Shown here one piece after another: positions 10,607 through 37,995 of a stretch of DNA of 47,235 bases. The position numbers and the translations under genes are program-made. Position 1 is the first letter of the stretch. Each line of letters begins with the position of its first letter. The stretch spans positions 1 through 47,235 of the forward strand of contig JAABRM010000054.1 in NCBI GenBank assembly GCA_011390955.1. Reading direction: 5' to 3'. Source of the DNA: Oscillatoriales cyanobacterium (GTDB lineage Bacteria; Cyanobacteriota; Cyanobacteriia; Cyanobacteriales; Laspinemataceae). The notes beneath the pieces were generated by a model that worked only from the letters and a program-made list of their open reading frames with translations, was not told where the DNA came from and did not search any database.

Positions 10607-10760
10607 ATCTACCAAAATGTCTCAATGATGACCATAAGTCTACAGACTATAAGTAGCAATCATTTTCTGCGATCGCTTTGGCATCCCGAAAAGAAACCGG
10701 GCTTCTCTTTTTAAAAGGGCTAATTACCTGCACAAAAAGCACCCCTAAACCCCAGGCGAT

Positions 10761-10787
10761 TCCGCGAAGCGGATCCCTTACGGGAAT
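10761..10787. repeat. 27-nt small repeat inserted in a HIP1 site
   Basis: GCGAT (10756-10760) and CGC (10788-10790) flank 27 nt containing CCGCGAAGCGG and GGATCCCTTACGGGAAT. Removing it restores GCGATCGC. It carries the stop codon of the Mut7-C gene, whose last residues are therefore repeat-derived (…RFP instead of a predicted …RSPGV). Confidence 0.85.
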
Positions 10788-11521
10788 CGCACTGCCCGAA
10801 CCTCAGCAATAAACTGTACCATTTTTTCATAGTGAGAACCTTTCCAGTAAATTTTGCCACAGTCGAGACATTGGCGAAATTCATCATGGTTTTCTCTAGT
10901 TTTTAGGGAAAGTTGTGCGGCAATTGTCTCTTTATCCACTGCCTTGACAGCCCCATTACAGTGAATACACCGAGAAAAGGGTTGAATTGCCTCAAATAGA
11001 TTAAATCTTTGCAGGACTTCTCGTAATTGTTGCTGGGGATTTTTATCCCGCACCCAGTAACCATGAGTGACAATTCCCCGCTTAAGTAAGCCAATATCTC
11101 GCGTGAGTAAAATGCGGTTTTCTTGACTAGAAATTTCCGCTAATTCTGCATCGGGATAATCATTCCGATACAGGGTATCAAATCCGAGACGGCGTAAATA
11201 TGCCGCTAGTTTTCCTAAGTGTAAATCCAGGACAAATCGGGGTTCTGGTTGCGGACGCAAGGGCAATATTTCGGCAATATCTCCCAATGCGGAAATGGGA
11301 TAAATATGGCATTGGTCATTATTTTGAACTAGGTAGGAAAAATCCACCGATTCCCCATTGACCATTATCCCATGAACTTCGGGATGGGGCACGCCGAAAG
11401 ATTCTATCATGTCTTTAATTGATGGGTGGTCTTTAAACTGGTGGGTAAATTGCCGATTTTTCCGCTCATCAGATAAGAAAATATTCAGGTCTGTATGAAA
11501 GTAAAATGTAGCTTGGTTCAT
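10778..11521 (-). CDS. Mut7-C RNase-like protein with N-terminal ubiquitin-like domain
   Basis: A 247-residue protein with two domains. The first 80 residues look like the ubiquitin-like beta-grasp Mut7-C domain (ATFYFHTDLNIFLS ... VHGIMVNGESVDF). The second is a Mut7-C PIN-fold nuclease with FVLDLHLGKLAAYLRRLGFD, RILLTRDIGLL and a C-terminal zinc ribbon (CIHC ... CLDC). Proteins of this type are predicted RNases, related to the Mut-7 C-terminal domain, acting in the cytosol. I chose the ATG at 11521 because the 39-residue upstream extension is basic and not domain-like. The C-terminus is set by a 27-nt repeat inserted at a HIP1 site. Confidence 0.88.
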   Translation of the reverse strand: MNQATFYFHTDLNIFLSDERKNRQFTHQFKDHPSIKDMIESFGVPHPEVHGIMVNGESVDFSYLVQNNDQCHIYPISALGDIAEILPLRPQPEPRFVLDLHLGKLAAYLRRLGFDTLYRNDYPDAELAEISSQENRILLTRDIGLLKRGIVTHGYWVRDKNPQQQLREVLQRFNLFEAIQPFSRCIHCNGAVKAVDKETIAAQLSLKTRENHDEFRQCLDCGKIYWKGSHYEKMVQFIAEVRAVRFP

Positions 11522-11788
11522 AATTTTTGGCGGATGGAAACAAGTTTTTTCATGGTAGCGGTTTTTTCTCAGTCTAACAATAGGAAGCCGATCGCTCCTA
11601 AAGACCAATTTTTGCCCTGGATCCCACCCTTGGGGCAAAAATCGGTCTTGAAAGGCGATCGCGCCGAAGATATCCCCAGACCCCCCATCGGCGATTTTGT
11701 ATTAGGTGTTAATAAAAGATACCAGTCAGCATCAAGAAATTTCCTTTTGCCTCTAGTATAATTAAGGTAATCGATCTTCAGAGAATAA

Positions 11789-12193
11789 ATGGCTATGACC
11801 CAGAATGATAAAGTGATTATCACCGCGTTTATTCATGCTTTAACCCGCTTGGATAAGAAACTCCCCACCACCGTACTGAATCAGTTGGGGATGATCCTGG
11901 ATGTGGCCGATCATGCCAGAAGATTAGAGATGGTGGCGTCAAGTTATACGGATTTAGCCAGACTATATGCGGAAGAGTGCGATCGCCTTTGGGCTGACCC
12001 CAGGGATCCGCAGAAAGGCTATCTGCCCAATTTTGACACCAATGAATACGATCGAGAATTGAAAAACCTGGCGGAACAAATTTGCCATTCTCCTAACCCC
12101 GTTCAAGCCGCCAAAGATGCTATTAATTCGAGCCAAAATAGCCGCATTCAAGCATTTTTCCATCAAATCTTTAACTCATCCCAGCCTAACTAA
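11789..12193 (+). CDS. Cyanobacterial hypothetical protein, paralogue of 42767-43156
   Basis: A 134-residue soluble helical protein. It aligns end to end with the 129-residue product at 42767-43156, sharing the patterns AF..(A/S)L.R...KLP, DLA(R/K)LY.EECDRL, (K)KG(Y/F)(L/F)P and L.(N)L(A/V)EQIC. No catalytic motif is visible and the function is unknown. It stands alone here, whereas its paralogue is directly followed by a coiled-coil membrane protein. The start could be ATG 11789 or the second ATG two codons later. A likely -10 element (TATAAT in AGTATAATTAAGG) lies about 30 bp upstream. Confidence 0.85.
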   Translation: MAMTQNDKVIITAFIHALTRLDKKLPTTVLNQLGMILDVADHARRLEMVASSYTDLARLYAEECDRLWADPRDPQKGYLPNFDTNEYDRELKNLAEQICHSPNPVQAAKDAINSSQNSRIQAFFHQIFNSSQPN

Positions 12194-12273
12194 CCGGGGT
12201 GCATTTATCTTGGCATTCCAGTAACCTGGCGACAGGTCGGTCAGCAGCAAAGTCAGGGATAACCAGGGGAAAG

Positions 12274-12311
12274 CCAATCTATTTTTGCTTAGTTGCACAA
12301 AAATAGATTGG
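12274..12311. terminator. 14-bp perfect inverted repeat
   Basis: CCAATCTATTTTTG (12274-12287) and CAAAAATAGATTGG (12298-12311) pair perfectly around a 10-nt loop in the gap after the hypothetical protein gene. It probably ends or stabilises that transcript. There is no U-run, so a factor-independent terminator is not certain. Confidence 0.5.
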
Positions 12312-12436
12312 GGATGAGAAAACATCGCTTGTGATCTGAAACACTGTCAAGACTGGAAAAATCGGTTATTTAATAGCTTAGAATCAGTCAGGTGTCATCT
12401 AAATCTTATCAAGGGGGTCTAACCCCTTCATCCCCT

Positions 12437-13135
12437 ATGTTAATTAAAAATAATATCAGCGGAATAGAACTTAAAGCCCAGTGGCAAATTTTATTTGATA
12501 ATTCTGCGGGCGATCGCCGAGAAGAAAGGAAAGTTTTGCGCGACTTAATCGATGCTTATTCCGAAGCTCATCGGTTTTATCACGGTTTGACTCATATTAA
12601 ACATATTTTAGGGGTAATTGCTACCTTCCAAGGCCAAGCAAAAAATTACCAGGCGATTCAATTTGCCGCTTGGTTTCACGATGTAGTTTACCATCCCAAC
12701 GCTAAGGATAATGAAGAAAAAAGCGCCGCTTATGCCGCCAAGGTGTTAACTAAATTGAACATCTGTTCCGCCACTATTGATGCGGTGACTCAGATGATCT
12801 TAAATACGAAATACCATCAAGCAGCCCCAGAGGATATTGATAGTCAAATTCTCCTGGATGCGGATTTGGCGATTTTAGGGGCAGATGAAGCCAGCTATCA
12901 GTTTTATGCCAGAGGAATTCGTCGAGAATATGCCCGGTTATCTTCGGCAGAATATCGCTTAGGGCGCATCCAAGTTTTGCAACAGTTTTTACAGCGATCG
13001 CGCATCTATTATACCCAGCCCATGTTTGGCCAATATGAAACTAAAGCCCGTCATAATATCCTATTAGAAATTGAAGCCCTTTGTTCGGCAGATAGCTATT
13101 TAGAATTAACCGGGCAAAAATCCTCGGCGGCTTAA
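12437..13135 (+). CDS. HD-domain metal-dependent phosphohydrolase
   Basis: A predicted HD-superfamily hydrolase of about 232 residues. Metal ligands are visible: a first His in the RFYHGLTHIKHIL segment, the paired FAAWFHDVVYHP (HD), and a distal Asp in LLDADLAILG. This is the arrangement of the N-methyl-D-aspartate-receptor-NMDAR2C-subunit-like/predicted HD hydrolase group. Substrates are probably phosphorylated nucleotides or similar compounds, but none can be named. The frame could begin at GTG 12392; I prefer the ATG at 12437, where the upstream 15 residues look like untranslated sequence. It precedes psbQ by about 110 bp. Confidence 0.83.
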   Translation: MLIKNNISGIELKAQWQILFDNSAGDRREERKVLRDLIDAYSEAHRFYHGLTHIKHILGVIATFQGQAKNYQAIQFAAWFHDVVYHPNAKDNEEKSAAYAAKVLTKLNICSATIDAVTQMILNTKYHQAAPEDIDSQILLDADLAILGADEASYQFYARGIRREYARLSSAEYRLGRIQVLQQFLQRSRIYYTQPMFGQYETKARHNILLEIEALCSADSYLELTGQKSSAA

Positions 13136-13248
13136 TAAGGCTGAATTTTGGCAGTCCCAACCGAAAAACCCCAGGCAGGGGTATGGAAAAGGGGCACAGA
13201 TTGTCGCATAATCTTACTTGGTAATAACTGTAGAAAATCATCAAGGCA

Positions 13249-13695
13249 ATGAAACGCTATAAATCGATTTTAGCCAGCATTCTGGCAGTGGTCATGGTGT
13301 TTTTGGTTAGCTGCGGCAGCCCCACCCCGACCAAACCCCCTGCTTATACTCCAGAAACCCTGGAGCAAATTAGCTCTTATGAGTCCAAACTGCTGGCATT
13401 TCGCGATCGCATGACCGAGTTAGAAGGATTTATCGCCGCTAAAGATGGGGTCAATGTTCGCAGCTTGATCCACGGCCCCCTGGGTTCTCTGCGTCAAGAC
13501 ATGAGCTATGTGAGCCGTCTGCTGTTGCTGCCTGCGGAACAAAAAACCGCCTTGGCAGAAGCCCGAGACATTTTCCGGCATTTGGAAGCGATCGATCGAG
13601 CCGCTGAAGCCCAAAACTATGTCCTGGCAAGGGATAATTACGCCGAAGCCCTGAGTGATTTCGATCGGTTCTTTACTTTACTGCCCAACAGCTAG
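13249..13695 (+). CDS. psbQ: Photosystem II protein PsbQ (CyanoQ lipoprotein)
   Basis: A 148-residue lipoprotein of the cyanobacterial PsbQ family, a lumenal extrinsic subunit that stabilises photosystem II. The N-terminus has a basic start (MKRYK), a hydrophobic stretch and a lipobox LVSC with Cys22 as the likely lipidation site, followed by a Pro/Thr linker. The mature part is a four-helix bundle with family text such as RDRMTELEGFIAAKDG, FIHGPLG-like LIHGPLGSLRQDMSYV and DFDRFFTLLP at the end. AAGG precedes the ATG. A strong hairpin terminator follows immediately. Confidence 0.95.
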   Translation: MKRYKSILASILAVVMVFLVSCGSPTPTKPPAYTPETLEQISSYESKLLAFRDRMTELEGFIAAKDGVNVRSLIHGPLGSLRQDMSYVSRLLLLPAEQKTALAEARDIFRHLEAIDRAAEAQNYVLARDNYAEALSDFDRFFTLLPNS

Positions 13696-13703
13696 GTTTC
13701 TAG

Positions 13704-13739
13704 ATAAAGTGAGAAGTTGTGATACACTTCTCACTTTAT
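13704..13739 (+). terminator. Hairpin terminator after psbQ
   Basis: ATAAAGTGAGAAGT (13704-13717) pairs perfectly with ACTTCTCACTTTAT (13726-13739) around TGTGATAC, nine bases after the psbQ stop, followed by TGTTTAT. The arms are symmetric, so it may work on both strands. Confidence 0.8.
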
Positions 13740-13760
13740 TGTTTATAGGGAATATGTCAG

Positions 13761-14894: not shown

Positions 14895-15004
14895 CACAGC
14901 AGCCGCTTATGAATAGCAATTTATCCCATTTCTAATTTGCCAAAGATGCAACAGTAAGGGCTAAAAAAATCCGAATAATTGTTAATTAATCAGAACATAA
15001 GACC

Positions 15005-15541
15005 ATGAACTATTCTCTGTTTAAACCCGATCGATCTGGCGAGATTCAGCAGATGTTTACTAACACTTTCTCCGATTCTGAGGGAGAGTCAGAAGGTGCT
15101 TTGATTGGTAATCTCGTTCAGGAATTGATCGAAACAACACCAAGCCAGGATCTATATGTGTTTGTTGCATTAGATGGGGATAAAATTGTCGGTGGCATTC
15201 TGTTTACCCGTCTGACATTTGATACCGACATCAGAGTATTTTTGCTCGCACCTGTCGCAGTTGCTACTGACTATCAGGGTAAAGGGATTGGTCAAGGACT
15301 GATTAGTTTTGGGTTGCAAACGCTCAAAGCTGAAGGCGTTCGGTTAGTCTTTACTTACGGCGATCCTAAGTTTTACTCCAAAGTCGGTTTCCAGCAGGTC
15401 AGCGAGCAGCAGTTTAAAGCGCCGTTAGCGTTAACCTATCCCCATGGTTGGATGGCGAAATCGTTAACCGATGAAGCGCTGAAACCGATTGCGGGCGAGT
15501 CATCCTGCGTTGCTGGATTCAACAAGCCCGAATTGTGGTAG
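15005..15541 (+). CDS. GNAT N-acetyltransferase (YhbS-like)
   Basis: A 178-residue single-domain GNAT. Strand beta4 and the acetyl-CoA loop read LAPVAVATDYQGKGIGQGLI (about residues 90-109), with the canonical QGKGIG loop. The later part, VFTYGDPKFYSKVGFQ, is typical of YhbS-like acetyltransferases. The acceptor substrate is unknown. The ATG at 15005 gives the usual family length. It is a single-gene unit, separated from the next gene by a 280-bp stretch with heptamer repeats. Confidence 0.87.
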   Translation: MNYSLFKPDRSGEIQQMFTNTFSDSEGESEGALIGNLVQELIETTPSQDLYVFVALDGDKIVGGILFTRLTFDTDIRVFLLAPVAVATDYQGKGIGQGLISFGLQTLKAEGVRLVFTYGDPKFYSKVGFQQVSEQQFKAPLALTYPHGWMAKSLTDEALKPIAGESSCVAGFNKPELW

Positions 15542-15774
15542 TCGAGCAGAGGGCAGGCATATAGCAATCCTAATTTAGTCCTGATTTAGTCCTGTCCAAA
15601 AGTTGATTGCTTTTAGGCAACAGACATTCTTGCTTATTGCCAGAGTAGCGGAATAGGAAAGATTGTTAATTGTTAATTGATATTAGCGTTGAACTATTGG
15701 TTTGATTCAAAATTAAGATGCCCTTTCTACAATTATTACTCGCTCAACTTCAATTATCCCCAAAACAGCGCTCG

Positions 15775-15813
15775 ACCATCAACCATCAACTATCAACTAT
15801 CAACTATCAACTA
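15775..15813. repeat. Heptanucleotide tandem repeat (STRR)
   Basis: Five consecutive heptamers, ACCATCA twice then ACTATCA three times, plus a partial copy, end nine bases before the start of the phosphodiester glycosidase gene. Heptameric short tandem repeats are characteristic of filamentous cyanobacteria. Copy number could vary between strains and shift promoter spacing. The rest of the gap from 15542 shows nothing else. Confidence 0.9.
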
Positions 15814-15821
15814 TTCAGACA

Positions 15822-16778: not shown

Positions 16779-16813
16779 ACTAAAAATCAGCAAATTAAAA
16801 AATCAAAAAAATC

Positions 16814-16852: not shown

Positions 16853-16876
16853 TTCAACACATTAAAACAATGTGAT

Positions 16877-19723: not shown

Positions 19724-20701
19724 TTACTAAATCTCCTATGTTAATTGGATTGGTATCGAGTTAAAGTTTTTTTCACAACAGGTTCAGACTTATGTAACAC
19801 AGAGGTCTGGACAGAGATCGTGTTTCCGATTGACTGTCTTCTGTTGTCGTTATCCAGTTGACCTTTGGTTTCTGGAACAGAAACCAGGAAATTAAAACTG
19901 GCTTCAGAGAATTATGAGAATTTTTTCCTCTTTTATGAGATGGAAAATTTTCCCTCAATTCAGGTCTGGGTAATGATTTACCTTTTTTTCTGACCTATTA
20001 GGTAATGACTATACAACGTATCTTCCGATTTTTATATTAAGTTTTATTACAAAAATTTGTTTTGCGCGGCGTAAGTAAAAATGCTCTCCTCCACGGGTTC
20101 TCACTCTGGATTTTCCGTTACATATATATAGTTGCCCAAGACGATCCGTAAGTATGATTACTTACTGGACGCCCAAGATAAGCGATTCCCTCGCCTGAGC
20201 TTCGCTTCACGCGCTTAGGAGTGATTTTCTCCCCTCGGATCATCATGTTGAGATATCAATGACCCCTTATTCCAGTATTTTGGCAGTGGGAGGAAGGCAA
20301 AACTTTCTCCCCCTAATGTGGTAGAATTACTTCAATTACAATTCTATAGTAGTGATAAATAAACAACAGTTTTAAGCTTTAACCAATTAAGCCGATGTCA
20401 TCTCAGTTACGGAATATAGTATCCCCGGTAATATTCACAATTATCCCATGTTTTAACAGGCCGATATTACGCGAAATTTATCTTTTTATTTGGTTGGGAT
20501 AAAAAAATATAAAGACTTTTTAGGTATAAAATTATTGGATGTTTTTTAGCCAGTCAAAAAACATCTTATAAAATTATTGACTCACTAGCGGTGCATCTAT
20601 GATATATTCATATAGATTATTGATATATTAATCGTTGGAAAAACCAGTAGCTAAAATATACATAAACCTTGATAAATTGATATTAGAGTAAAGGAGTCAC
20701 C
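19724..20701. promoter_or_regulatory. Divergent intergenic region: cpc promoter/leader and start of the GNAT-TGT operon
   Basis: A 978-bp region without a supportable gene separates cpcB from the plus-strand operon. Long leaders are usual for cpc operons, so several cpc promoters probably lie here; I cannot place them exactly. Visible structure: a perfect hairpin GTAAGTA/TACTTAC (20148-20165), a direct repeat GACGCCCAAGA/CGCCCAAG, and a 23-nt small repeat (20187-20209) that splits a GCGATCGC octamer. A very AT-rich tract at 20440-20700 leads to AAAGGAG, the ribosome binding site of the TTG-starting GNAT-TGT gene at 20702. Confidence 0.7.
20187..20209. repeat. 23-nt small repeat inserted in a HIP1 site
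   Basis: GCGAT (20182-20186) and CGC (20210-20212) flank 23 nt containing GAGCTTCGCTTCA, which resembles the 25-nt repeat at 25708 and 28241. Removing it restores GCGATCGC. Confidence 0.75.
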
Positions 20702-25066: not shown

Positions 25067-25466
25067 TCACAAGAGTATAGTTTGGCGGCATTATGCTTGG
25101 CTAGAGTTAAATGCTTCCCCGGAAAACAGTAATATTTTACATAAATCTATATATTTCTTTTTATAGGCGATCGCCTCTAGTCCATCTGGTGCGATAGCGC
25201 ATCCGCGCCGCTTCGTGATCGCCATCAGTCAACAGCGATCGTCTACACCAGAGAATTTGGATATTTGGGAGCAATTAAAAACTTTATATCAGAAAGGTCA
25301 TATAGAGATTACCATCTCGGTGAGAGAGTCACTCAAATAACCGGGTTATTCGGCGTTGGGTTGTGGTGAGGTGGATTCGTCTTCTAATTGATTTATCAAT
25401 CCCCTCCCACATTTGGGACAGAGGAATCAGTAGTTTCAATTGCTTTCATTTTGGCTAATGATATTA
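25067..25466. pseudogene. Gene-poor gap with small repeat and coding remnant
   Basis: The 400-bp gap holds a 24-nt small repeat (25196-25219) inside a HIP1 site: GCGAT at 25191-25195 and CGC at 25220-25222 rejoin as GCGATCGC. On the plus strand, from about 25215 to the stop at 25340, a short open piece ends in DIWEQLKTLYQKGHIEIT and SVRESLK. It reads like the C-terminal end of a lost protein. It could be the displaced tail of the truncated ATPase or another gene. No start or ribosome binding site is seen. Confidence 0.45.
25196..25219. repeat. 24-nt small repeat inserted in a HIP1 site
   Basis: The insert contains AGCGCATCCGCGCCGCTTCG and is nearly identical (reverse orientation) to the one at 36955-36978. 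Flanks GCGAT and CGC rejoin to a perfect HIP1 octamer. Confidence 0.85.
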
Positions 25467-26004
25467 TTAATTGTCATATTTACTTAAATCTGCTTGCCAG
25501 CTAGTTAAAACTTTAGGGGCAATGTGTTTGCCGCGTTTTCCTATCAATTCATCAGCCATCACCATGACTTCAGCGGCGGTTTTATGTCCAGTTTGTACCA
25601 TCTCGCTTAAGAGCCGCAGTGTCCTAGTATAAGCGATATCATATTCCTGGCAAATCTTGATTACCAAACCATCATCACTGGCACAAAGTAAAAACTGAGT
25701 ACGGGCGTGAAGCGAAGCTATCGCGTCAGCGAATTGCCAGGGTAGAACGATCGCCGATACTCAGCAACGGTTCTCTCAGGCAAAACTCGATAAAACTAGC
25801 AAACATTTCCTCTGTTTCTAGACTCAGAGGTGTCAGGTATTGGTACGCAGTTTGACGAGTATCTATTTCCCAGTTATCCGAGTCGAGCAGTTCTTGGGAA
25901 ATATACAGATGACTATAGTGTTTTTCTAGCCATTCCCACTCGTTAAGCCAGCGAAAATCAATTAAAGCCGTTGCATCTAAAATCGTTCCTCTATGCGACA
26001 ACAT
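25467..26004 (-). pseudogene. PIN-type toxin gene broken by a 25-nt repeat
   Basis: Two frames make up one gene. The N-terminal piece (from ATG 26004) reads LSHRGTILDATALIDF with a PIN-like first Asp, continues to GDRSTLAIR and stops. The C-terminal piece continues in another frame as TQFLLCASDDGLVIKICQEY ... LTSWQADLSKYDN. Between them 25 nt (25708-25732) interrupt a near-HIP1 octamer (GCAAT^CGC). Removing them gives STLAIARTQFLLCASDD in one frame. The intact protein would be about 170 residues. It probably was the toxin-like third gene of the XRE-ImmA module upstream, and overlaps the 47-residue frame by 14 bp. The break should abolish the product unless a short N-terminal PIN fragment is functional. 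Confidence 0.85.
25708..25732. repeat. 25-nt small repeat inserted in a HIP1-like site (PIN gene)
   Basis: Plus-strand sequence TGAAGCGAAGCTATCGCGTC followed by AGCGA, flanked by GCG and ATTGC. The identical 25-mer is at 28241-28265. It introduces a TGA stop and a frameshift in the toxin-like gene. Confidence 0.92.
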
Positions 26005-26134
26005 AAACTTCGTTTTCCCGACGATGCCCCCGCAATTCTTCAACAGTCAGATTCAGTATTTCTGCTGCTTTCAGTTCACAAATTTTGTCCAAATTCAGCG
26101 CTTGCCAAATCAGATATATATACCTACCGTTCAT
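25991..26134 (-). CDS. Small coupled ORF (47 aa) between ImmA-type and PIN genes
   Basis: A 47-residue frame from ATG 26134 that overlaps the end of the XRE-ImmA gene by 11 bp and the start of the PIN gene by 14 bp. The peptide starts MNGRYIYLIWQALNLDKI and contains a helical, amphipathic segment (ELKAAEILNLTVEELRG). No family is recognised. The two overlaps form a tight translational relay, which is good evidence that it is translated. It could be a linker subunit or antitoxin for the PIN protein. Confidence 0.65.
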   Translation of the reverse strand: MNGRYIYLIWQALNLDKICELKAAEILNLTVEELRGHRRENEVYVVA

Positions 26135-28037: not shown

Positions 28038-28240
28038 TTACACACAATCTCCCGATCGCCGCCGTACCATAAACGGATTGACAGACTCCATCAGATACCT
28101 AGGGCTGCTAACGATTTCGGTGAGGGTGGTCAGTTAAAGGCTCCTAGTTAGTCATCTCCCAATCTTCTATCTTTAATCCTGCTACCCGTCCAAACTCTGC
28201 GGTATTGTGGGTGACTAGGGTCAGATCGTTTGCCAGAGCG
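28038..28240. repeat. Duplicated segment, copy B
   Basis: Same composition as copy A: helicase-tail fragment (28038-28092), spacer, and vapC 3' end up to the 25-nt repeat insertion. It is nearly identical to copy A over more than 200 bp. Confidence 0.88.
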
Positions 28241-28576
28241 TGAAGCGAAGCTATCGCGTCAGCGAATCGCGGCAATTTGTAAATCTTTGATCCCAATCAT
28301 CTCACCAGATAATTCTAGTTGAGCCTTTAGTCTGCCAAAAATTAAAGCAGAAACATCATCGAAAGGAAGCGAAACAAACAGAGTGATAAAATCATTCTGC
28401 TTGCGGTAGGTTAGATCGGGATTAAGACTTTTAAAAGCACCGTAAGCCAATTCAGACTTAACAATTGAACAAATAAAAACTTGAGTTAAATCAACGTCTC
28501 TAAATTTCTGCCGAATTGCAGGCGATCGCCCATTTAAATATCTAGCCCAAACATTGGTATCCAGTAAATAACTCAT
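28144..28576 (-). pseudogene. VapC-like toxin gene broken by a 25-nt repeat
   Basis: The gene starts at ATG 28576 (MSYLLDTNVWARYLNGRSP, PIN first Asp) and reads to DLQIAAIR then TGA. The TGA belongs to a 25-nt repeat at 28241-28265. Deleting the repeat rejoins GCGAT to CGC and restores [20 protein letters not shown] and an end nearly identical to that of the 27321 toxin. The final acidic residues of the active site are lost in the disrupted form, so the toxin is probably inactive. Its antitoxin gene (28573-28797) is intact. The N-terminal two thirds are clearly different from the 27321 toxin, while the last 35 codons are almost identical, which indicates recombination. Confidence 0.88.
28241..28265. 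repeat. 25-nt small repeat inserted in a HIP1 site (vapC)
   Basis: Identical to the insert at 25708-25732. Flanks GCG (28238-28240) and ATCGC (28266-28270) rejoin to GCGATCGC. The equivalent site in the intact VapC-like gene reads GCGATTGC with no insert. Confidence 0.93.
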
Positions 28577-28797
28577 GCTACTTTTTGTTGATGGTTTTCT
28601 TCTATTAAAATAGGATCGTCTGCCAAGCAACCATAAAAACTATCGACAATTTCATGTAAATCATTGATATTTTCTGAATTGGCTAGAGTGTAAACTATCG
28701 CTACATCTAATTCTTGATTCGCTAAATTTTGAGGCAATTGTAAAGTTATTTTACCTTCAGCATCAACGCGAGTTTTACACTGAATTAATTGCATCAT
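28573..28797 (-). CDS. Putative antitoxin paired with the broken VapC
   Basis: A 74-residue protein with the beta-rich start MMQLIQCKTRVDAEGKITLQ and a C-terminal acidic tail (DLHEIVDSFYGCLADDPILI). It is analogous in position, start and end to the 27725 antitoxin and overlaps the toxin gene by 4 bp. It may remain as a solitary antitoxin now that its toxin gene is broken. Confidence 0.75.
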   Translation of the reverse strand: MMQLIQCKTRVDAEGKITLQLPQNLANQELDVAIVYTLANSENINDLHEIVDSFYGCLADDPILIEENHQQKVA

Positions 28798-28929: not shown

Positions 28930-28985
28930 TTACACACAATCTCCCGGTCGCCGCAGTACCATAAACGGATTGACAGAATCCACCT
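28930..28985. repeat. Genuine helicase 3' end, source of copies A and B
   Basis: This is the last ~55 bp of the helicase coding sequence, including its TAA stop. Related copies are at 27215 and 28038, both outside the gene. Confidence 0.85.
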
Positions 28986-31900
28986 GATAATTAGGATACT
29001 GGGTTTGCGCCGCTGTCACCCCTGCGATCCATTCGGGATGCTCATCGTTCCATAGGGGATGGCGCAAAATTCGGATGGTTTTCCGTCCGGAATTAACGTA
29101 GCCGAATAACGTCCCAAATTGTACTGACTGACGATAGCCTAACTGCTGAAGGGTGGCGGGAATTGAACCTTGGACGAGGTTGAGCCAAGGATTCGGGAAA
29201 TTGCCCCAAGGGGAGTTGATATCCACCACGGATGCAGCATCCAATACTAGCCGCGCCATATCTAACGCCAGTCGCCAGTCTAGCAATCCATGATAAGCCA
29301 AGTTTTGATAGTCCCGCAAACAGAGATTGCAGGAAGTGTCGCATTGGTTGCTATGTGTGTCAGGGTTGAGCCAACGATCAGCGATACTGTTGGTCGTTTG
29401 TGGGCTCCGGTTGGTCGCTGCTTGCGCCATGAGTTGCTCAAACTCCTGGGGTTGAGCCAGGAAGCGACAATATCCCGCCCCATTCTCCAGTTGGTCGCTT
29501 AAGAAAGCCTGACCAATGACCCGTCCATTCTGCTCTAGAGAACGGAAACCTGCCTGCAACTCCTGTGCATCTACATCCAGGTGGGAGGCTGCGGCTATCC
29601 GCAACCAAAAGGCGAAAGAATACCAGGCGGATCGACCGACAACTGTTCTGGGGTCAGCAAATACGCCGTGGGGCCATTGCTGAATATTAATTAATAGGAT
29701 ATCGGTGTTGCGGCGAGAGAGTAGGGCGACTCGATAGGCAGGGCCGGTGGTTCCCACTTGGCTACTGGAGTCAGGAGATACGGCATAGGCTCCCGGTCGA
29801 GAAGTACCAAAAACTGTGGCCTGTTGAAAGTCAAATCCGCCTTCGCCTCCCTTGTCGTTAACAGAGATTATATTGTCGTTGAAGGCGCAAACAGAAGCAT
29901 TAAGAATAGATGCAGGTGAAGCAACGTTAGCATCAATACTCAGAGAGGGTCGCGTAGAACGGGGTTGCCATTCAAATTGACCGTCATAGTCTTCTGGCTG
30001 CAAGTTGGTAAAGAATCCTTTGGGTTCTCTGGCATCTACGGTACGCAGTTCGTTAGCCCCGCAAACTGGACATTGAATCGTTGGCGGTCTCTGCCCTCCC
30101 GGTAAGGGTTGATTTAAGACGGTGTGGGGGTAAACGACGGCTTGACAGTTGGCACAGAGTCCGAGAGATTGGTTGCCTTCGGTGAGTGCGGGGACTAATC
30201 CTGGGGATGAGGCAATGGTGTTGCCTTGGGGAAATAATTCAACGACACCACAGGCGGTGTGAACGGCTTTATCTTTGACGGTTTCTGAACCGGGGGCAAA
30301 TTGAGAAATTGCTACATCTAAGTCGCGATCGACCACCCCGGTTTCGGGGGGCCATGTACCGGGTGACGGCCAACGGGTATGAAGCAGGCGCACCCGCGTG
30401 GGGAAACCAAACATGGGCAGTAAGCCTGCGTTGGCTAGACGTTCGCTTAAGGCATTTTGGGTGTAAGTGGGGTCATTGACAATTTCTTGAATGCGAGGGA
30501 TTAAGTCATTACGGAGAAAGTCCAATGTTTGGGTATTGCTGGCATTAAATGAGGTTTGGACGCGCAAGGTATCTAATACCGATAAAATGGCGGGTTCGTT
30601 AGCTCGGTCATTGAGCCAAGCCGCGATTTCCGGTGCGTAATGAGTCCAATCCTGAACCGAGCCAAATTCACCATGTACGTTATCAGTGCCATTAGATGTT
30701 AAGGCAACCCCAGACGCTTGTAAACTCAACCGGGCAATGGGGAAGGCTTGGCGCAAGACTTCTTTAATGAGGACGCGCTGGAAGATTTCTTGACTTCTCA
30801 TGTCAACATAAGGCGCTGGCGGTGGGTCGCCAGTGATGCTTTCAGCCCGTTGGAAGTAGAAGTCATCGTGACTTCTGCCGCGACAGAAGGTGACGGCGAG
30901 GGAGACGCCAGCAGAACGTCTGCCTGCACGTCCGACTCGTTGTTGATAGTTGAAGCGGCGAGGGGGCATATTTGCCATCATTACGGCAAGTAAGGCTCCG
31001 ATATCAACCCCTGCTTCCATTGTGGTGGTGACGCTGAGGAGGTCAATGCCTTGAACGCGGCCAATTTCATTGTTGATGAAGATGTCTTGGAACCACCGTT
31101 GCCGTTTGGCGCGATCGCCCTTATCGGTTTGTCCGGTTAATTCGGCGGCATTCATGCGGAAAGGACCGCCCGCTTGTTCGGAAAGATAGGTGTAGTAGTC
31201 AAAATCCGTGGTAGTTTGTCCCGGTTGGAGATAAATGGTAGGCGTGTTGGATTTGTCAAAGCGGCGATCGCTGTTACATTCGGGACAAACTCCCCCTGCT
31301 GGTTGCAGAAAGAAGGCATTACATTGGGGACAGCGATATCCCGGACGGGAACCATCGGGATTTTGAGGTGGTGGCAGAACGAGATATAGGCGATCGGGAT
31401 TGAGTGCCAGTCCTCTCGCACTGGATATACCAACCTGGGATTGGATTAACTGCTGCTGTACATCGGCAGGAGACAAGCCGGTTCTCTTAACATAGCGTTG
31501 GGCTAAATTTGATAAGTTTGAGTCATCACCAAGGTAGAAATACTCGAAATAGCGATGCCATTTCCGAATTCCTAATTGTCGGATCACTGCTTCTGTTGCT
31601 TCTATCAACCTTGCTGATGGATTTCCTTGAGGCTGATAGCTCGCCCACCCTATTCCCAAGCCTTCCATAGTTCTAGCAATGTGTTGGAATAGAGCATACA
31701 TCAATTCCTCAACCAGCCTTGCTTCGAGTTTATCTGCATGATTTGATTGTTCTGAAGAGGCAGGAATCACCCGTGCTACCGGATTGGCATTCCAGTTGTA
31801 ACAATCAAACCAAGGTCGCCATTCTTTGCCGCTTTCCTGTCCTACTGGATAATTCAGGGAACGGAATCTTGAACCCCCTGGACAAATACCAGATGCGAGT

Positions 31901-34755
31901 AAGCCATCTCGAACTTTATCACGCAAATTTAATAAGGGAATCCTTTCTGGGTAACGCTGGAGTAAACCAAGCCACTCATCACGAGCTTGTGGGTTACTCG
32001 AAGGTAAATCCATCACCCAGGAAAACGCTTCGGCAACTAACTGGGCGTTGGCATTACTAAATCGGTTGTATCCGCTTGTATCTTCAGGGGATGCAACCAC
32101 CGCCGCATAAAGACTGGGATTTAGAGCTTGCAACCTAGGTAGAGCTATCTGATTATTTCTACAAGTAATGCCGAGAAAGGCTACTAGGTCATTCCAGTAA
32201 TCTTGGAATGACTGAATCAGCAGCATCCGCGCCATGTCACGGTAATGATCGCGCTCCATTCCCGCTGCCAACTTTGCCGCATCTTGGCGACTATCGGAGA
32301 AAATAACCAGCTTGCGCGATGACCGACTGGTGGGAGTTGGAGGTGCGGGCATTTCCCGGAGCAGTCCACTGGCAATCACTTGGCAGGCTTTCTGAAATCC
32401 CGTGCGGTGGAAGCGTAGAGGGGTGGGGAATTTGTCCCGTTTCCCGTAGTCCGCATCGCAGCGAGGACATTTACTCGGTAATGCGCGTTGCTCGTCTGCT
32501 CGATTGCCCATCACTTGATATAGCCATCCGGGGATTTCACCAGGGTTTGGCGGCTTATCCTGTGTGAGTACGCCTGTCACTCGATTGAGTTTGGCGCGAA
32601 CCCATCGGCGCTTTATCTTGTCCAGAGTCCATTCTGGGTCTTGAGGTTCGGTATTCCAAGGTGGTGTCTCGTGGGGTAACGGCCAAAATACTCGGTAGTT
32701 GCCATAGCTTTGGTTACTCGAGATTAAATCGGGAATTCCTTCTAAATTGGGTTGGTCGGGGGTTAATATTTCTATATTTTTGTTGCCTATCTTGCGGGTT
32801 GCTTTGTAGCCGCCCAAAAAGACATCGCCGCAAACTTCGCATACGAGTAGATCCAGAACCCGCGAACCACAGGAACAGGTTAGGCTGTGGGTAGCATGAA
32901 TGGCACCGACGGTGGGGCGAATCGCTTCTTGTTGTCGCCTTTGAGTATTTACCGCAGGGTCGGTACAGTCTGGGTTACAGCAAGCCCACAGGTTTTGCAG
33001 GTTGTGGAAGAATATGTGACCGCGCACGGGTTGGGGCGATCGCCCGCGAGCAAGAAACCGGGTTTCTGGGATAATTTCTGGATTTGAACCATAACTTTGA
33101 TTAAGAAACCCGGTTTCTGACATTCCCAGCGCCAGTAGCAGTCCTCGCATACTATCGGAACAAAGAAACCGGGTTTCTGGGATAGTTTCTGGATTTGAGC
33201 CACAATTTTGATTAAGAAACCCGGTTTCTGACAACGCAGAGAAAAGTTGGCGGTCTAAATGTTGTACATTGGTAGCACGAACGCTCCCATTAACTGCCTG
33301 ACAAGCATCCCGCAGGGCATCGGATGCACCGATAATATCTAATGCTTGACCCAGTTGTCTTTCTTCAGCCAATCCCGATGCGGAGGTTCCCAACTGCATC
33401 GCCAGATCGGACATGGGCGATCGCGACGAATTAAGATCCGGCGGCTGCATAGGGTTCAAGGGGTCAGGTTGCACAGCCTGAGCAAATTGAGCAAACGCAT
33501 TTTGATATCCAGAAAGATTAAATCTTGCTCCCTGTGTAGGTGGTGTTTGCTCTCCAGAAATAAAGGCAAAATTATCCCGGCCAAAAAACTGGCGCAAAAA
33601 GTCTCGACCCTGAGTATTTTCTTCTAAACTAGCGGTTGTAGTTAAAATTCGCAGTTGGGGTGATTCGGCGGTTAATCCCAAGCGGTCATAAAGCAAGCGC
33701 AAGATATAAGCGACTTCGGTTCCGGGGGTGCCGCGATAGGCGTGTAGTTCGTCAATAATCAGGAAAAATTGATTTTCGGGATTTTCTGCTAACCAGTCGC
33801 GAGTTTGGTCAAATATACTATCCTCAATGCTCCGCATCATCATAATGTTGAGCATGGAATAGTTGGTAATGAGGATATCTGGCGGACAGTCTTGCATATC
33901 CCAGCGCGATCGCATCTCTCCCCCATCCAGTCGCGGGAAGAAATAGGGCAAGTCCGGCACATCATCAAGTAGAGAAGGATTGTTTTGAATTTCCGTATCG
34001 ATTTGTTGCCGTTGCTGTTCCAGTTCCGTTAATTCGTTTCTCAGTCTTCTGATGCTATCGGGTTTTTCGATTCCTGACACTGGAGTTTGTCCGGTGTAGC
34101 GGCCAAAAGTAATCCGGTTGCCCCCTCTGGCTGTATTTAACCACTGATGTACATTCGGTGCTTCCAATGCTTTTCGCAACCGTCGCAACTGGTCTTCAAC
34201 TAAGGCATTTAATGGATATAAAATCAAAGCCCGTAAAGCTTTGGGACGTGGGGCGTGTTCCCATTGGGATATCCTATCCCCATTGGGATTAACAGAATTA
34301 TCCCACCATCGGCTATTGTGGGGAGTTGCTGGACAAGCCTGCCAACTGCTTGATTCTCGTGCCAACTGTGCCAAGAGTGGCAAAAGGAAACATTCGGTTT
34401 TACCGGAACCCGTCCCCGTAGTGACAACTAAATCCCTTTGGTTAACCAGCACTTGTTGCAAGCTTTCCCACTGGTGTCGATAAAGGGAGATAGTTGGTTC
34501 AAAAATTTCTTGTCCGAGTAGTGCTAAATCTCTGTATTGTGGGGGCAATTGATTGGCAGCAGCGGCTAAAGTCATCCCCGAAGATGGATAAATGGGGACT
34601 GGTTCGACCAAAGGCGGTTGGCTCAAGATGCCCGGTTGCTGTAGCAAGCTGTCTCGTTCTTCTGCTAAAGCTCGGTAACGCAGGGGAAAGGCACTCTTGA
34701 TGTAGAGATGATAGATGCGATCGAGTCTTTGATACGCCCCAACTAGGTCATACAC
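28930..34755 (-). CDS. Giant DEAD/DEAH helicase with C-terminal DUF1998 domain
   Basis: An approximately 1,941-residue superfamily 2 helicase. Motif I GTGSGKTE is at about 114-121, and motif II IIDELHAYRG (DELH box) is near 333-342. TTTAS follows as motif III, and motif VI RVGRAGR is near 1275. Cys clusters (CPRC, CPQC...CPEC, CANC...CPVC) look like zinc ribbons. The C-terminus CDTSCNLCLRDYQNLAYHGLLD is the DUF1998 signature. Large DUF1998 helicases are core parts of Druantia (DruE), DISARM and Dpd defence systems. Start: GTG 34755, with AGGAGG eight bases upstream. Two 68-bp palindromic elements are carried in frame near residues 508-567. It is 12 bp after the 480-residue gene. Which defence system is undecided. 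Confidence 0.9.
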   Translation of the reverse strand: MYDLVGAYQRLDRIYHLYIKSAFPLRYRALAEERDSLLQQPGILSQPPLVEPVPIYPSSGMTLAAAANQLPPQYRDLALLGQEIFEPTISLYRHQWESLQQVLVNQRDLVVTTGTGSGKTECFLLPLLAQLARESSSWQACPATPHNSRWWDNSVNPNGDRISQWEHAPRPKALRALILYPLNALVEDQLRRLRKALEAPNVHQWLNTARGGNRITFGRYTGQTPVSGIEKPDSIRRLRNELTELEQQRQQIDTEIQNNPSLLDDVPDLPYFFPRLDGGEMRSRWDMQDCPPDILITNYSMLNIMMMRSIEDSIFDQTRDWLAENPENQFFLIIDELHAYRGTPGTEVAYILRLLYDRLGLTAESPQLRILTTTASLEENTQGRDFLRQFFGRDNFAFISGEQTPPTQGARFNLSGYQNAFAQFAQAVQPDPLNPMQPPDLNSSRSPMSDLAMQLGTSASGLAEERQLGQALDIIGASDALRDACQAVNGSVRATNVQHLDRQLFSALSETGFLNQNCGSNPETIPETRFLCSDSMRGLLLALGMSETGFLNQSYGSNPEIIPETRFLARGRSPQPVRGHIFFHNLQNLWACCNPDCTDPAVNTQRRQQEAIRPTVGAIHATHSLTCSCGSRVLDLLVCEVCGDVFLGGYKATRKIGNKNIEILTPDQPNLEGIPDLISSNQSYGNYRVFWPLPHETPPWNTEPQDPEWTLDKIKRRWVRAKLNRVTGVLTQDKPPNPGEIPGWLYQVMGNRADEQRALPSKCPRCDADYGKRDKFPTPLRFHRTGFQKACQVIASGLLREMPAPPTPTSRSSRKLVIFSDSRQDAAKLAAGMERDHYRDMARMLLIQSFQDYWNDLVAFLGITCRNNQIALPRLQALNPSLYAAVVASPEDTSGYNRFSNANAQLVAEAFSWVMDLPSSNPQARDEWLGLLQRYPERIPLLNLRDKVRDGLLASGICPGGSRFRSLNYPVGQESGKEWRPWFDCYNWNANPVARVIPASSEQSNHADKLEARLVEELMYALFQHIARTMEGLGIGWASYQPQGNPSARLIEATEAVIRQLGIRKWHRYFEYFYLGDDSNLSNLAQRYVKRTGLSPADVQQQLIQSQVGISSARGLALNPDRLYLVLPPPQNPDGSRPGYRCPQCNAFFLQPAGGVCPECNSDRRFDKSNTPTIYLQPGQTTTDFDYYTYLSEQAGGPFRMNAAELTGQTDKGDRAKRQRWFQDIFINNEIGRVQGIDLLSVTTTMEAGVDIGALLAVMMANMPPRRFNYQQRVGRAGRRSAGVSLAVTFCRGRSHDDFYFQRAESITGDPPPAPYVDMRSQEIFQRVLIKEVLRQAFPIARLSLQASGVALTSNGTDNVHGEFGSVQDWTHYAPEIAAWLNDRANEPAILSVLDTLRVQTSFNASNTQTLDFLRNDLIPRIQEIVNDPTYTQNALSERLANAGLLPMFGFPTRVRLLHTRWPSPGTWPPETGVVDRDLDVAISQFAPGSETVKDKAVHTACGVVELFPQGNTIASSPGLVPALTEGNQSLGLCANCQAVVYPHTVLNQPLPGGQRPPTIQCPVCGANELRTVDAREPKGFFTNLQPEDYDGQFEWQPRSTRPSLSIDANVASPASILNASVCAFNDNIISVNDKGGEGGFDFQQATVFGTSRPGAYAVSPDSSSQVGTTGPAYRVALLSRRNTDILLINIQQWPHGVFADPRTVVGRSAWYSFAFWLRIAAASHLDVDAQELQAGFRSLEQNGRVIGQAFLSDQLENGAGYCRFLAQPQEFEQLMAQAATNRSPQTTNSIADRWLNPDTHSNQCDTSCNLCLRDYQNLAYHGLLDWRLALDMARLVLDAASVVDINSPWGNFPNPWLNLVQGSIPATLQQLGYRQSVQFGTLFGYVNSGRKTIRILRHPLWNDEHPEWIAGVTAAQTQYPNYQVDSVNPFMVLRRPGDCV
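33053..33120. repeat. 68-bp palindromic element in the helicase gene (copy 1)
   Basis: Ends AGAAACCGGGTTTCT and AGAAACCCGGTTTCT are inverted repeats of each other and each nearly self-complementary. The element is read in frame as SETGFLNQNCGSNPETIPET. It is 87% or more identical to copy 2, 43 bp away. Confidence 0.93.
33164..33231. repeat. 68-bp palindromic element in the helicase gene (copy 2)
   Basis: Same element as 33053-33120, same orientation, read as SETGFLNQSYGSNPEIIPET. The two copies and the 43-bp spacer keep the reading frame. Confidence 0.93.
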
Positions 34756-34767
34756 GGTTGACACCTC

Positions 34768-36210
34768 CTAGCACGTTACATCGAGTTTATCACTAAGCAA
34801 CACCACCTGTTCCACGCCCGCGTTTTCATAACACAACCAGGATTTTTGATAAGTGGGGAGTAGTCCCGACCCTAGGACTAATGCTCGTTCGTAAATTTCT
34901 GGCCACCGTTGATGATACGGAATCGCTAATCTGTTGGTGTCCCCGTCGTAACGAGCTAGGCATTTTTGACCTGAATGTTGCCAAGAGAGAAAGCGCAAGC
35001 CGTACCAGTCCCCTTGTAGCCAAACGTCTCTTTCTCGGTGATAAAAAAGAGTAAGGCGATAGTTTTGGTTTTCTCGGCGTAATTCATACAGACCAGTCTC
35101 TGTAGGATGATTCCATTCTTCAAAGTTATTTGTCTGGCAATTAAACTTTTGCCACTGGTAGAGACTGGGTACAATTCCTGATAAATTGGTTAACTGTTCC
35201 TGCCAAATTTTGATATCGGGCAATAGTTCGGCAAGTTGAAGGGATGCGTTTCCGGCGTTGGCAACGATAAAATCGCTGCGATCAAAAACCGGGTTTCTTG
35301 CAGAAGTTAATAATTTTAACTCAGAGTTAAGGCAGAAACCCGGTTTCTTGGGGTCGTGAATTTTCAGCCGAATGCAATGGGGACCGGCACCTTCCGGTTG
35401 CGGGATATATGTTAATTGAGCATATTGTTTCAGACAATCTAATAACTTTATGCTACGTTGACCGCATAAAATATATTCTGAATTTTCTGAATTTTCTGAA
35501 TCCGATTCAACTTTTACCAAAGCAGTCGGGGCTATAGACCATCTTTTGCCATTAACAGAAGATTCAATGTGTCCCAGCAGTCTTAGCCGTCGTAATATGC
35601 GTTCTGGTTTCTCAATTTGTAGAGTATCGCAAGCTTTTTTGAAGGCTTCCCAACTACCGCTGCCCATTGCCGAGAGCCAATAGAGGAGGCGATCGCATTT
35701 TATCGATTTTTTTTCTATATCCGCAGGGTTTTCTATGTGATATACGGAGGTTTGTGGGTTGAATGCAAATGGCGATCTCTGCTCTTTAATTTTGGCTGCG
35801 GGTTGATAAGGAATGCTATGACGCATAAACTCGTAAACTTCCAATTGAGAGCCAACCCAGGCTATGACATCATTGTAAGAAAATGCTTGTTTAATTGGTT
35901 CTTTAATCAACTTACGCTTTTTTAATAATGGATTGATAACATCCTCTTGAATATTTGGGGGAATATCCTGCATTTTTAGGCTTTTAATTGGGAGAAAAAA
36001 ACATTTTTCTCTGTTAGACTCAATGCCGGGATATATGAGAATATGGTCTACATCATCATAAAGAGATTTTCGGCGGACTAAATTTTCTATAAAATCAATA
36101 ATTTTTTGGTAATCGCCTTGATATGAAAATCCTTTATACCAAACCAAAAACCTCCGATATCCTGAGCGATTTTTTATTTCTAAGATATTGGTGTGTGGCA
36201 CGATCGTCAT
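34768..36210 (-). CDS. Helicase-cassette protein (480 aa), unknown
   Basis: A 480-residue protein between the 580-residue gene and the giant helicase, all on one strand. A winged-helix-like unit is visible at about 185-235 (SWEAFKKACDTLQIEKPERILRR ... IESSVNGKRWSIAP). The C-terminal part is rich in aromatic residues with beta-strand pattern. No catalytic motif is seen. AGGA lies right before the ATG. The palindromic element at 35284-35350 is carried in frame (about residues 287-309). It is most likely a DNA-binding or adaptor subunit for the helicase. Confidence 0.75.
   Translation of the reverse strand: MTIVPHTNILEIKNRSGYRRFLVWYKGFSYQGDYQKIIDFIENLVRRKSLYDDVDHILIYPGIESNREKCFFLPIKSLKMQDIPPNIQEDVINPLLKKRKLIKEPIKQAFSYNDVIAWVGSQLEVYEFMRHSIPYQPAAKIKEQRSPFAFNPQTSVYHIENPADIEKKSIKCDRLLYWLSAMGSGSWEAFKKACDTLQIEKPERILRRLRLLGHIESSVNGKRWSIAPTALVKVESDSENSENSEYILCGQRSIKLLDCLKQYAQLTYIPQPEGAGPHCIRLKIHDPKKPGFCLNSELKLLTSARNPVFDRSDFIVANAGNASLQLAELLPDIKIWQEQLTNLSGIVPSLYQWQKFNCQTNNFEEWNHPTETGLYELRRENQNYRLTLFYHRERDVWLQGDWYGLRFLSWQHSGQKCLARYDGDTNRLAIPYHQRWPEIYERALVLGSGLLPTYQKSWLCYENAGVEQVVLLSDKLDVTC
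35284..35350. repeat. Palindromic element in the 480-aa gene
   Basis: Ends AAAACCGGGTTTCTTG and CAGAAACCCGGTTTCTTG belong to the same palindrome family as the helicase elements, with a different core (AGTTAATAATTTTAACT, itself an inverted repeat). It is translated in frame (KKPGFCLNSELKLLTSARN). Confidence 0.88.
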
Positions 36211-36252
36211 TCCTGAAATACAAAATTGGCCGAGATCGAGATTATTATTATC

Positions 36253-37995
36253 TCATGTAATGATGCTACCGCAAATACGATACCCAGAACCTAGATCCAA
36301 TTGTTCGTGCTGTTTGGATGGTGCGTTAGCGAAGCTATCGCGTCGGCGAATCGCCAACTCACTCCAAGGCAAAATTCTGACAAATCGTTCATTTGTAGAC
36401 GTTCCAGCAGTTGCCTCTAGCAGATAGTCTCCTGTACCGGGAAACACAATTGGTGGAATTTTTTGATTGGTTTCGACTGTTGCCGAATATATTTCATGAT
36501 TATCGGATATGCGAGTTACTTTTAACTCAGCCGAAGGAGAAAACCCAAACACGGTAATTTCTGGCGGATATTCTTCTAACCAAGCATTGTGTTGAGGCAC
36601 TCGCAACCCACCGGATAAGCTAATGGATAATCGCACAATAGGTTGCAACGCATCTTTCAGTTCTGAATTATCAATAAACACGGCATCCCAATCTTGAGAA
36701 ATGACCATACACTGGTCTAGTTCTACCCAGTTTAAATTATCAATTGAATTCTCAAAAGATGGCATGGGTTCGCCACTCCATTCGATTAACTTTTCGTCTC
36801 GTAAACGCTGCAAGTCAGATAGTAATTCCTGCTTACATAATAATATAAAAGCTGTGCCCAATGGTGGGGTTCCCCAAGAAGCATAAACCCCCGCATCTGG
36901 ATTATCGGGGTCAGGAATCAGAATCCAGAAATCCCGCTGGGGTAAAATGAGGCGTTCGCGAAGCGGCGCGGATGCGCTATCGAGATTGGCATTTCCTATA
37001 ATTTCATATCTCGCACCGCGATCCAATTCACTGGCATTCAGGGGATACTCCAGGGGAAAATACCATCCGGGACGTTCTTCTCGCAAAGGCTTACACTTAT
37101 CCCCTTGCTGAATAGAAATCGATGCCAATTGCGGCCCTCTTTGTTGTTTGGGATAAAGATAATAATCAATTTTACCGAAAAATGGATCTTCTGTGCGGTA
37201 CAGTCCAGCAAAAAGATAGCGACTGCGCGTGCTGATTTCTCGGTTTTGAGTTGTGGCAGATATTTCTGGATACTCTAACCATTGCTGGTAAACTTCGTGA
37301 ATGGCTTCGGCAATGGCTTCATAACGTTGTCTATCTTCAAGCAACTGTTTCAGATGTTGAGAAAGTCTGGATGCTTCTCGACGAACATTAGCTAATAGGG
37401 TCATCTCATCCCAATCTTTTTTCCACTGTTTCTCGTCAAATAAACGGCACAATCGGTCTTTGTCTGCGCGGCGCAGGAGAGATTGAGAAATGGGATAGTT
37501 AATATATTTATATCTTCTGCCACTTCCCGGTTTTGCGGAAGGCAGAAATCCTTGTCGCATCAACCATCGATTCCACTCTTGCCACAAAGGTTTTTCACTG
37601 CCAGTTTTCAGCCCCGGTGGACGACAGCTTTCTGTAGTTATCCTAAAAATTTGTTTTAATCGTTGGAAGTAATTGGTGTCGTTGATTTCTTCATCATCAG
37701 CCATACGATAAGCGGCTAAAACCGTTGTGGCTAAAAATGCAACACCTAGGGGATAATCTTTGGCATCACATTCGCCCAGACCAGACAAATCTATCCGTTC
37801 CCCAAAGAAAACTTTATTTCTAACCGCTGATAGAAAATCATCGATCCAAGTGTTTGCACTTAAGTCTAAGCCATATTCTTCACCAATGCGATCGCATATG
37901 TCATCGTAAACACTTAGGTGTACTCTTGTCCCTCGTGGGATACCACTGGTAAAGTAGGATGCTATTGCCTGATTCCACTGTTGGTAATTTGCCAT
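36253..37995 (-). CDS. Helicase-cassette protein (about 580 aa), unknown
   Basis: A large protein, first gene of the helicase cassette. I prefer the ATG at 37995 (MANYQQWNQAIASYF). Upstream ATGs would add 51 residues that look like repeat/HIP1 sequence. The frame stays open to 38148. Motifs such as GIPRGTRVHLSVYDDICDRIG and WIDDFLSAVRNKVFFG suggest an alpha/beta N-terminal domain followed by a helical coiled region (REASRLSQHLKQLLEDRQRY) and beta-rich domains. The family is not recognised. Two 24-nt HIP1-associated repeats are carried in frame (SASAPLRE and RRRDSFAN segments). It is followed by a 42-bp gap to the 480-residue gene. Confidence 0.75.
   Translation of the reverse strand: MANYQQWNQAIASYFTSGIPRGTRVHLSVYDDICDRIGEEYGLDLSANTWIDDFLSAVRNKVFFGERIDLSGLGECDAKDYPLGVAFLATTVLAAYRMADDEEINDTNYFQRLKQIFRITTESCRPPGLKTGSEKPLWQEWNRWLMRQGFLPSAKPGSGRRYKYINYPISQSLLRRADKDRLCRLFDEKQWKKDWDEMTLLANVRREASRLSQHLKQLLEDRQRYEAIAEAIHEVYQQWLEYPEISATTQNREISTRSRYLFAGLYRTEDPFFGKIDYYLYPKQQRGPQLASISIQQGDKCKPLREERPGWYFPLEYPLNASELDRGARYEIIGNANLDSASAPLRERLILPQRDFWILIPDPDNPDAGVYASWGTPPLGTAFILLCKQELLSDLQRLRDEKLIEWSGEPMPSFENSIDNLNWVELDQCMVISQDWDAVFIDNSELKDALQPIVRLSISLSGGLRVPQHNAWLEEYPPEITVFGFSPSAELKVTRISDNHEIYSATVETNQKIPPIVFPGTGDYLLEATAGTSTNERFVRILPWSELAIRRRDSFANAPSKQHEQLDLGSGYRICGSIIT
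36326..36349. repeat. 24-nt in-frame small repeat at a HIP1 site
   Basis: The insert is a 24-nt version of the 25-nt repeat at 25708, with the TGA changed to CGA. It adds eight residues (RRRDSFAN) with no stop. Flanks GCG and ATCGC rejoin to GCGATCGC. Confidence 0.9.
36955..36978. repeat. 24-nt in-frame small repeat at a HIP1-like site
   Basis: Second repeat type, reverse complement matching the insert at 25196. It adds eight residues (SASAPLRE). Flanks GCG and ATCGA rejoin to GCGATCGA, one base from HIP1. Confidence 0.85.

Follow-up and report, generated by a model that had tools for sequence, protein, structure and literature searches.

The genome of this cyanobacterium holds some two hundred copies of elements of 24 to 27 nt, often inside genes. 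The copies are dispersed and near-identical, they were inserted precisely into what had been HIP1 or a close variant of it, and their stems covary. We regard them as probable ultra-small non-autonomous mobile elements of 24 to 27 nt that are targeted to HIP1 and move as a folded single strand. To our knowledge, HIP1 has no settled function, and no mechanism has been established for mobile elements of so small a size. With about 200 copies in the genus, empty sites in relatives, and a covarying plan, two questions become testable, namely what makes the cut in HIP1 and in which form the elements move; the elements also mean that proteins gain short peptides at a predictable motif, HIP1.

Seven inserts of 24, 25, or 27 nt lie in the window, by which we mean the whole 47,235-nt stretch of DNA that was analyzed. 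All seven split HIP1 between bases 3 and 4, GCG^ATCGC when read along the element, which is the other-strand reading of GCGAT^CGC:

10759..10785, + strand: class C insert, 27 nt, between GCG (10756-10758) and ATCGC (10786-10790)
20187..20211, - strand: class D insert, 25 nt, between GCGAT (20182-20186) and CGC (20212-20214)
25196..25219, - strand: class A insert, 24 nt, between GCGAT (25191-25195) and CGC (25220-25222)
25708..25732, + strand: class B insert, 25 nt, between GCG (25705-25707) and ATTGC (25733-25737)
28241..28265, + strand: class B insert, 25 nt, between GCG (28238-28240) and ATCGC (28266-28270)
36326..36349, + strand: class B insert, 24 nt, between GCG (36323-36325) and ATCGC (36350-36354)
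36955..36978, + strand: class A insert, 24 nt, between GCG (36952-36954) and ATCGA (36979-36983)

The class C insert can alternatively be placed at 10761-10787, between GCGAT and CGC. When the flanks are joined, the inserts at 10761, 20187, 25196, 28241, and 36326 give GCGATCGC, while those at 25708 and 36955 give the one-base HIP1 variants GCGATTGC and GCGATCGA, respectively. A first-pass annotation of this DNA had described seven inserts between HIP1 halves whose removal restores HIP1 or a one-base variant. All seven are present and behave in this way (five exact restorations and two variants), and only the lengths given there, 23 to 27 nt, had to be corrected. In the window, R1 matched at 10756-10790 with 55.4 bits, over the class C insert, and R2 matched the two class A inserts, at 25191-25222 with 50.7 bits and at 36955..36978 with 53.2 bits. 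No Rfam family reached its gathering threshold within the window.

The window also contains dispersed repeats of other kinds. Palindromes of the AGAAACCGGGTTTCT type at 33052-33233, 35286-35359, and 41239-41262 are a different dispersed repeat, and AGAAACCGGGTTTC occurs 188 times in 1.2 Mb of the genome. Tandem repeats of CATTCCCGC palindromes fill positions 1-266 and 46926-47235, with CGATCGATGTCATTCCCGC units at one end. A GTAGGGGCGAAGCATTCCGG-like dispersed repeat, found at 44526 and in many sample stretches, also contains GCGAAGC and has no HIP1 halves in the contexts listed.

To set the joins against the HIP1 background, we used a sample of 1,204,943 bases (60 stretches plus the window) of the 7.12-Mb genome, which is in 113 contigs, the window being contig 63. 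Intact HIP1 occurs 1483 times in these 1,204,943 bases, or once per 812 bases, and 0.06% of positions have a triplet and a quintet that, separated by 24 or 27 nt, match HIP1 with at most one base different. A search of the sample by insert similarity only returned 45 places. Thirty of them had at most 5 mismatches, and 13 were left after removal of 14 seed copies and 3 further sites of the first-pass annotation. The join lies within one base of HIP1 at 10 of these 13 non-seed places, among them L022:7092, in our judgment a coincidence that was excluded from the empty-site comparison, and at 6 of the 15 places with exactly 6 mismatches. In a separate count, 13 of 57 stretches of the form GCG-27 nt-ATCGC, a figure in which both strands are counted and most sites therefore appear twice, read as two tandem hairpins, whereas shuffling predicts 0.25. 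The raw spacing counts of GCG-N-ATCGC, with 51 against 39 in the control at 24 nt and 57 against 26 at 27 nt, are a weak test.

Empty sites were sought in relatives for 64 loci (17 + 21 + 6 + 20). At 25 of these, some relative lacks exactly the insert. Ten are shared without a length change (one of them is also among the 25), 12 differ by another length, and 18 have no two-sided orthologue. Scoring of the 25 loci used one relative each, the one whose flank identity was highest. At the 23 loci with a flank identity of at least 0.80, the empty site is exact HIP1 (GCGATCGC) in 12 cases, differs from it by one base in 6 and by two in 2, and bears no likeness to HIP1 in 3, which places 18 of 23 within one base of HIP1, compared with 0.24% of random positions. 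The three unlike HIP1 are L200, L296, and the window locus 10759, where relative G002 lacks the 27 nt and has no HIP1 octamer at the aligned position. Empty sites at the two loci below 0.80, L196 (compared with G007) and 25708, where relatives with a flank identity of 0.72 lack the 25 nt, are not HIP1-like, and at L004, L031, and L027 the junctions of several relatives at a greater distance are not HIP1-like either.

At 28241, all four of four relatives are shorter by exactly 25 nt and have GCGATCGC; at L055:9674, six of six relatives have GCGATCGC; and outgroups also lack the insert at both loci. Three relatives lack the 24 nt at 36326, two reading GCGATCGC and one GCGATCTC; three lack the 24 nt at 36955, two reading the same variant as at the join and one ACAATCGA. 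Variant joins are already present in insert-free relatives, ACGATCGC at L027 and GCGATCGA at 36955. The right-side alignment of relatives is poor for the insert at 20187, which is outside the scored set, and a search for relatives that align on both sides of the insert at 25196 found none. Because insert-free relatives carry HIP1 or a near variant, the events are insertions and not losses, and HIP1 is their target. The proposal of the first-pass annotation that a mobile small-repeat process aims at HIP1 is borne out by these empty sites and by near-identical inserts at unlinked places; the check it had asked for, whether relatives have HIP1 at the empty site, left the idea standing.

Where our genome has the class A loci L284 and L294, relative G002 (L317 and L304) has class A copies expanded to tandem arrays with a period near 24 nt. 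At two sites, L297 versus L309 and L191 versus L238, G000 and G002 have different inserts at one site, and at the L297 site the G002 sequence resembles a class A element in the opposite orientation; it is possible that one HIP1 was reused by different inserts. Across one 300-kb contig, synteny with G002 amounted to only 32 kb of long alignments, which is too little for an unbiased indel census.

Copies were counted in the three genomes of the genus, our own, G001, and G002, with covariance models that include the HIP1 halves. Class C (27 nt) has at least 101, 98, and 95 copies, respectively, and class A (24 nt) at least 108, 123, and 120. These counts are lower bounds, since 118 or 150 candidates were scored per genome; the models favor HIP1-flanked copies, and overlap between the two is included. 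Near-identical inserts sit at unlinked places with differing flanks. Outside the genus, at least 8 of 56 genomes have any match to class C, with no more than 14 matches in one genome, and the 24-nt class A model has matches in at least 63 of 194 genomes of the taxonomic class, with 37 candidates scored per genome. When the GTDB collection, which may omit our own or near records, was scanned with a class C pattern, nine stretches matched, all in Planktothricoides sp. SR001. One class A pattern had no exact match in viral contigs.

The two main classes, A and C, consist of two tandem mini-hairpins with compensated stem changes. Covariation is a stronger test of such a plan than single-sequence folding. 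In the class C alignment (A7), 20 of 34 sequences were chosen by flanks and likeness, after 11 forms in reverse orientation and 3 with a different loop register had been set aside; 91.7% of the cells are paired, with 11 two-sided changes. The class A alignment (A6), with 21 of 48 distinct sequences in forward orientation and with a GGAT loop, also chosen by flanks and likeness, has 91.8% paired cells and 18 two-sided changes. None of 500 shuffles reached the paired percentage or the covariation score of either class. The number of pairs with a two-sided change is less striking, with 16 and 33 of 500 shuffles reaching it for class C and class A, respectively; an initial count of covariation in 12 class C sequences picked by hand had given a weak signal. 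Folded as DNA, class C plus its flanks forms a three-stem junction with paired HIP1 halves (z of -2.72), and single class A and B sequences fold no better than shuffles (z of +0.62, -0.18, and -0.95). Classes B and D (25 to 26 nt) fit the hairpin plan more poorly.

The best class-wide matches to the class A model are 24-nt modules with the same plan and other stems. Seven of 10 such modules with exact flanks as read form two tandem hairpins, against 0.08 expected. A wider 24-nt alignment (A8) was built from 20 of 28 new loci plus 3 others, after dropping 2 duplicates and 6 that were off-register, weak, or short. In this set, which was found with the structure model and leans to that structure, 96.7% of the cells are paired, two-sided changes occur in seven of eight pairs (33 cells), and 0 of 500 shuffles do as well. 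The first-pass annotation had seen at least three unrelated insert sequences that share nothing but the target. The HIP1 target is indeed common to all, whereas the two main classes also share the tandem-hairpin plan with compensatory stem changes. CGAAGC is present in all seven window inserts and GCGAAGC in six of them, and together with the stem covariation this rules out that the inserts are unrelated sequences.

We examined how the elements sit in genes. Among elements of 24 or 27 nt, 45 of 58 (28 of 38 plus 17 of 20) lie in frames that run across the insert without a stop for 300 nt or more, a share near the 83% of 1345 intact HIP1 sites found in such frames; only one of nine elements of other lengths does so. 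As regards stop-free frames, five element consensuses do no better than shuffles, and we therefore make no claim of reading-frame selection. In the window, the inserts at 36326 and 36955 are both in frame within one DruF-like ORF. Three other ORFs on the - strand end inside inserts: 10778-11638, encoding a Mut7-C protein, in the class C insert 10759..10785; 25726-26043, of no family, in the class B insert 25708..25732; and 28259-28630, VapC-like PIN with matches under the NCBIfam cutoffs, in the 25-nt insert at 28241. The region 28930-38148 (- strand), which hosts both in-frame 24-nt HIP1 inserts, consists of Druantia-like defense genes:

within 28930-38148, - strand: DruE-like, 1944 aa, 1569.5 bits
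within 28930-38148, - strand: DruL/DruF-like, 480 aa
36253-38148, - strand: DruF-like, 631 aa

We infer a mobile form that would be a folded single strand, recognized by its shape. It would be joined at one strand of HIP1 by a putative HIP1-directed nicking or cutting activity acting in trans and then be copied into duplex. Fixed copies would drift or persist as in-frame peptides of 8 to 9 residues. A search for an enzyme or autonomous partner, which covered Y1 genes, found none. A HIP1-directed endonuclease is the other candidate enzyme besides a Y1 transposase; AsiSI-type enzymes cut at the same bond of the site.

A Y1 transposase is possible as the driver, and we looked for it without finding support. 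It would act as in REPINs, with a RAYT-like or IS200/IS605-like Y1 (HUH) transposase moving the double hairpin in trans and joining it next to a short target that is not duplicated, which we consider unlikely. The double hairpin and the class A copies without AT duplication would suit such an enzyme, and a Y1 gene is present in 11 of 11 genomes with class C matches, but also in 39 of the 48 other genomes. Nor do the numbers follow, with 3 in our own genome against 16 in G036 and 14 in G053, both without a class C match. At the 25 Y1 loci, class C is without a match and class A has a single weak one (16.1 bits, E value of 0.017), and alignments A6 to A8 show no GTAG/CGTC tag at the stem foot.

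The bases next to the join bear on a second, similarly improbable route, in which a HIP1 endonuclease cuts GCGAT^CGC to leave 2-nt ends, and the break captures a copied duplex. In class C, AT stands on both sides in 19 of 20 rows, as from a 2-nt duplication, and Elhai 2015 (PMC4390886) suggests, in its passage on the small dispersed repeat SDR5, that directed HIP1 cutting could be part of the explanation for SDR5 insertion. Of 31 HIP1-flanked class A contexts, however, 19 begin with TT, 11 with AT, and 1 with CG, and the TT start means that those 19 copies have no such AT duplication. Break capture also leaves the compensated stems unexplained. If one mismatch is tolerated, a 5/3 join fits 29 of these 31 contexts as well, and the strand polarity of class A is therefore unproven.

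Alternatively, the stems could be kept by a function of the sitting copies, as RNA stability or as a peptide, and not by mobility. Ten loci shared with G001 or G002 have 8 changes in 258 insert bases against 26.6 expected from flank divergence, a figure that is partly an effect of choice, since shared copies selected for likeness to the consensus lower the change count. Only 10 of 64 loci are shared without a length change, and copies sit in unrelated places; we think this explanation quite improbable. A reading in which the half-sites, GCG and ATCGC, belong to the element itself as its ends, or in which relatives lost the element, would account for the same flanks in most copies of a class, but it is refuted for the tested loci by the empty sites that are HIP1 or near it (18 of 23, outgroups included). 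Hairpins made in place when replication slips or switches template at the HIP1 palindrome would fit the tandem 24-nt growth that G002 shows at the L284 and L294 sites, but such an origin is practically untenable, as identical inserts at unlinked loci with different flanks need copying.

Returning to HIP1-targeted movement as a folded single strand, a wider picture is conceivable, though we put it forward tentatively: the elements may belong to a phylum-wide clan of 24- to 30-nt double hairpins, among the smallest mobile elements known, whose stems would evolve through changes that compensate each other, and which would move as folded single strands, use the host HIP1 machinery to enter one bond of a palindrome linked to methylation, and seed proteins with in-frame peptides of 8 to 9 residues. 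What may be new here is the combination of several sequence classes with one covarying plan, class-wide matches, the copy number in the genus, and in-frame insertions. The insertion of SDR5 into HIP1 reportedly goes back to Elhai et al. 2008. We make no claim that the hairpin plan is unpublished, as that source may show the fold.

Among known systems, REP and REPIN sequences with RAYT transposases are described, in the passages of PMC3116915 and PMC3733652 compared here, as tiny, palindromic, dispersed double-hairpin units that are extragenic and carry a GTAG/CGTC tag. The present elements are likewise tiny, palindromic, dispersed, and double-hairpin. They differ in lacking the tag at the stem foot (A6, A7, and A8), with GTAG occurring only in hairpin loops (CGTAGC) of some rows, in lying mostly inside ORFs (45 of 58), and in having a fixed 8-base target. 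No link to Y1 genes was found, a Y1 gene being present in 11 of 11 class C genomes and in 39 of 48 others. The Rickettsia palindromic elements, given in the relevant part of PMC10969869 as in-frame insertions of about 150 bp with a conserved peptide into unrelated genes, resemble ours in the in-frame insertion into unrelated genes, whereas ours measure 24 to 27 nt and have a fixed HIP1 target. MITEs, cyanobacterial ones included, appear in the same source as non-autonomous dispersed insertions. Ours are also non-autonomous and dispersed but far shorter, and the search, which covered Y1 genes, turned up no parent element; class A shows no AT duplication in 19 of 31 contexts, and class C is compatible with an AT target site duplication.

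The closest parallel is SDR5. Except for the sentence on SDR5 in PMC4390886, the passages of the literature compared, including ones from PMC6513891, PMC4919922, PMC4766695, and PMC2884548, give no description of double hairpins that split HIP1. That sentence describes a cyanobacterial small dispersed repeat with precise insertion between HIP1 nucleotides 3 and 4, which answers a question left by the first-pass annotation, whether HIP1 targeting had been described; the target rule is therefore known. Like SDR5 as described there, the present elements are small mobile repeats inserted between HIP1 bases 3 and 4 (seven of seven in the window), and they are dispersed and mobile (precise absence at 25 of 64 loci). 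In comparison with SDR5, for which the description served as the basis, several classes of 24 to 27 nt share the site here and reach about 200 copies in one genus.
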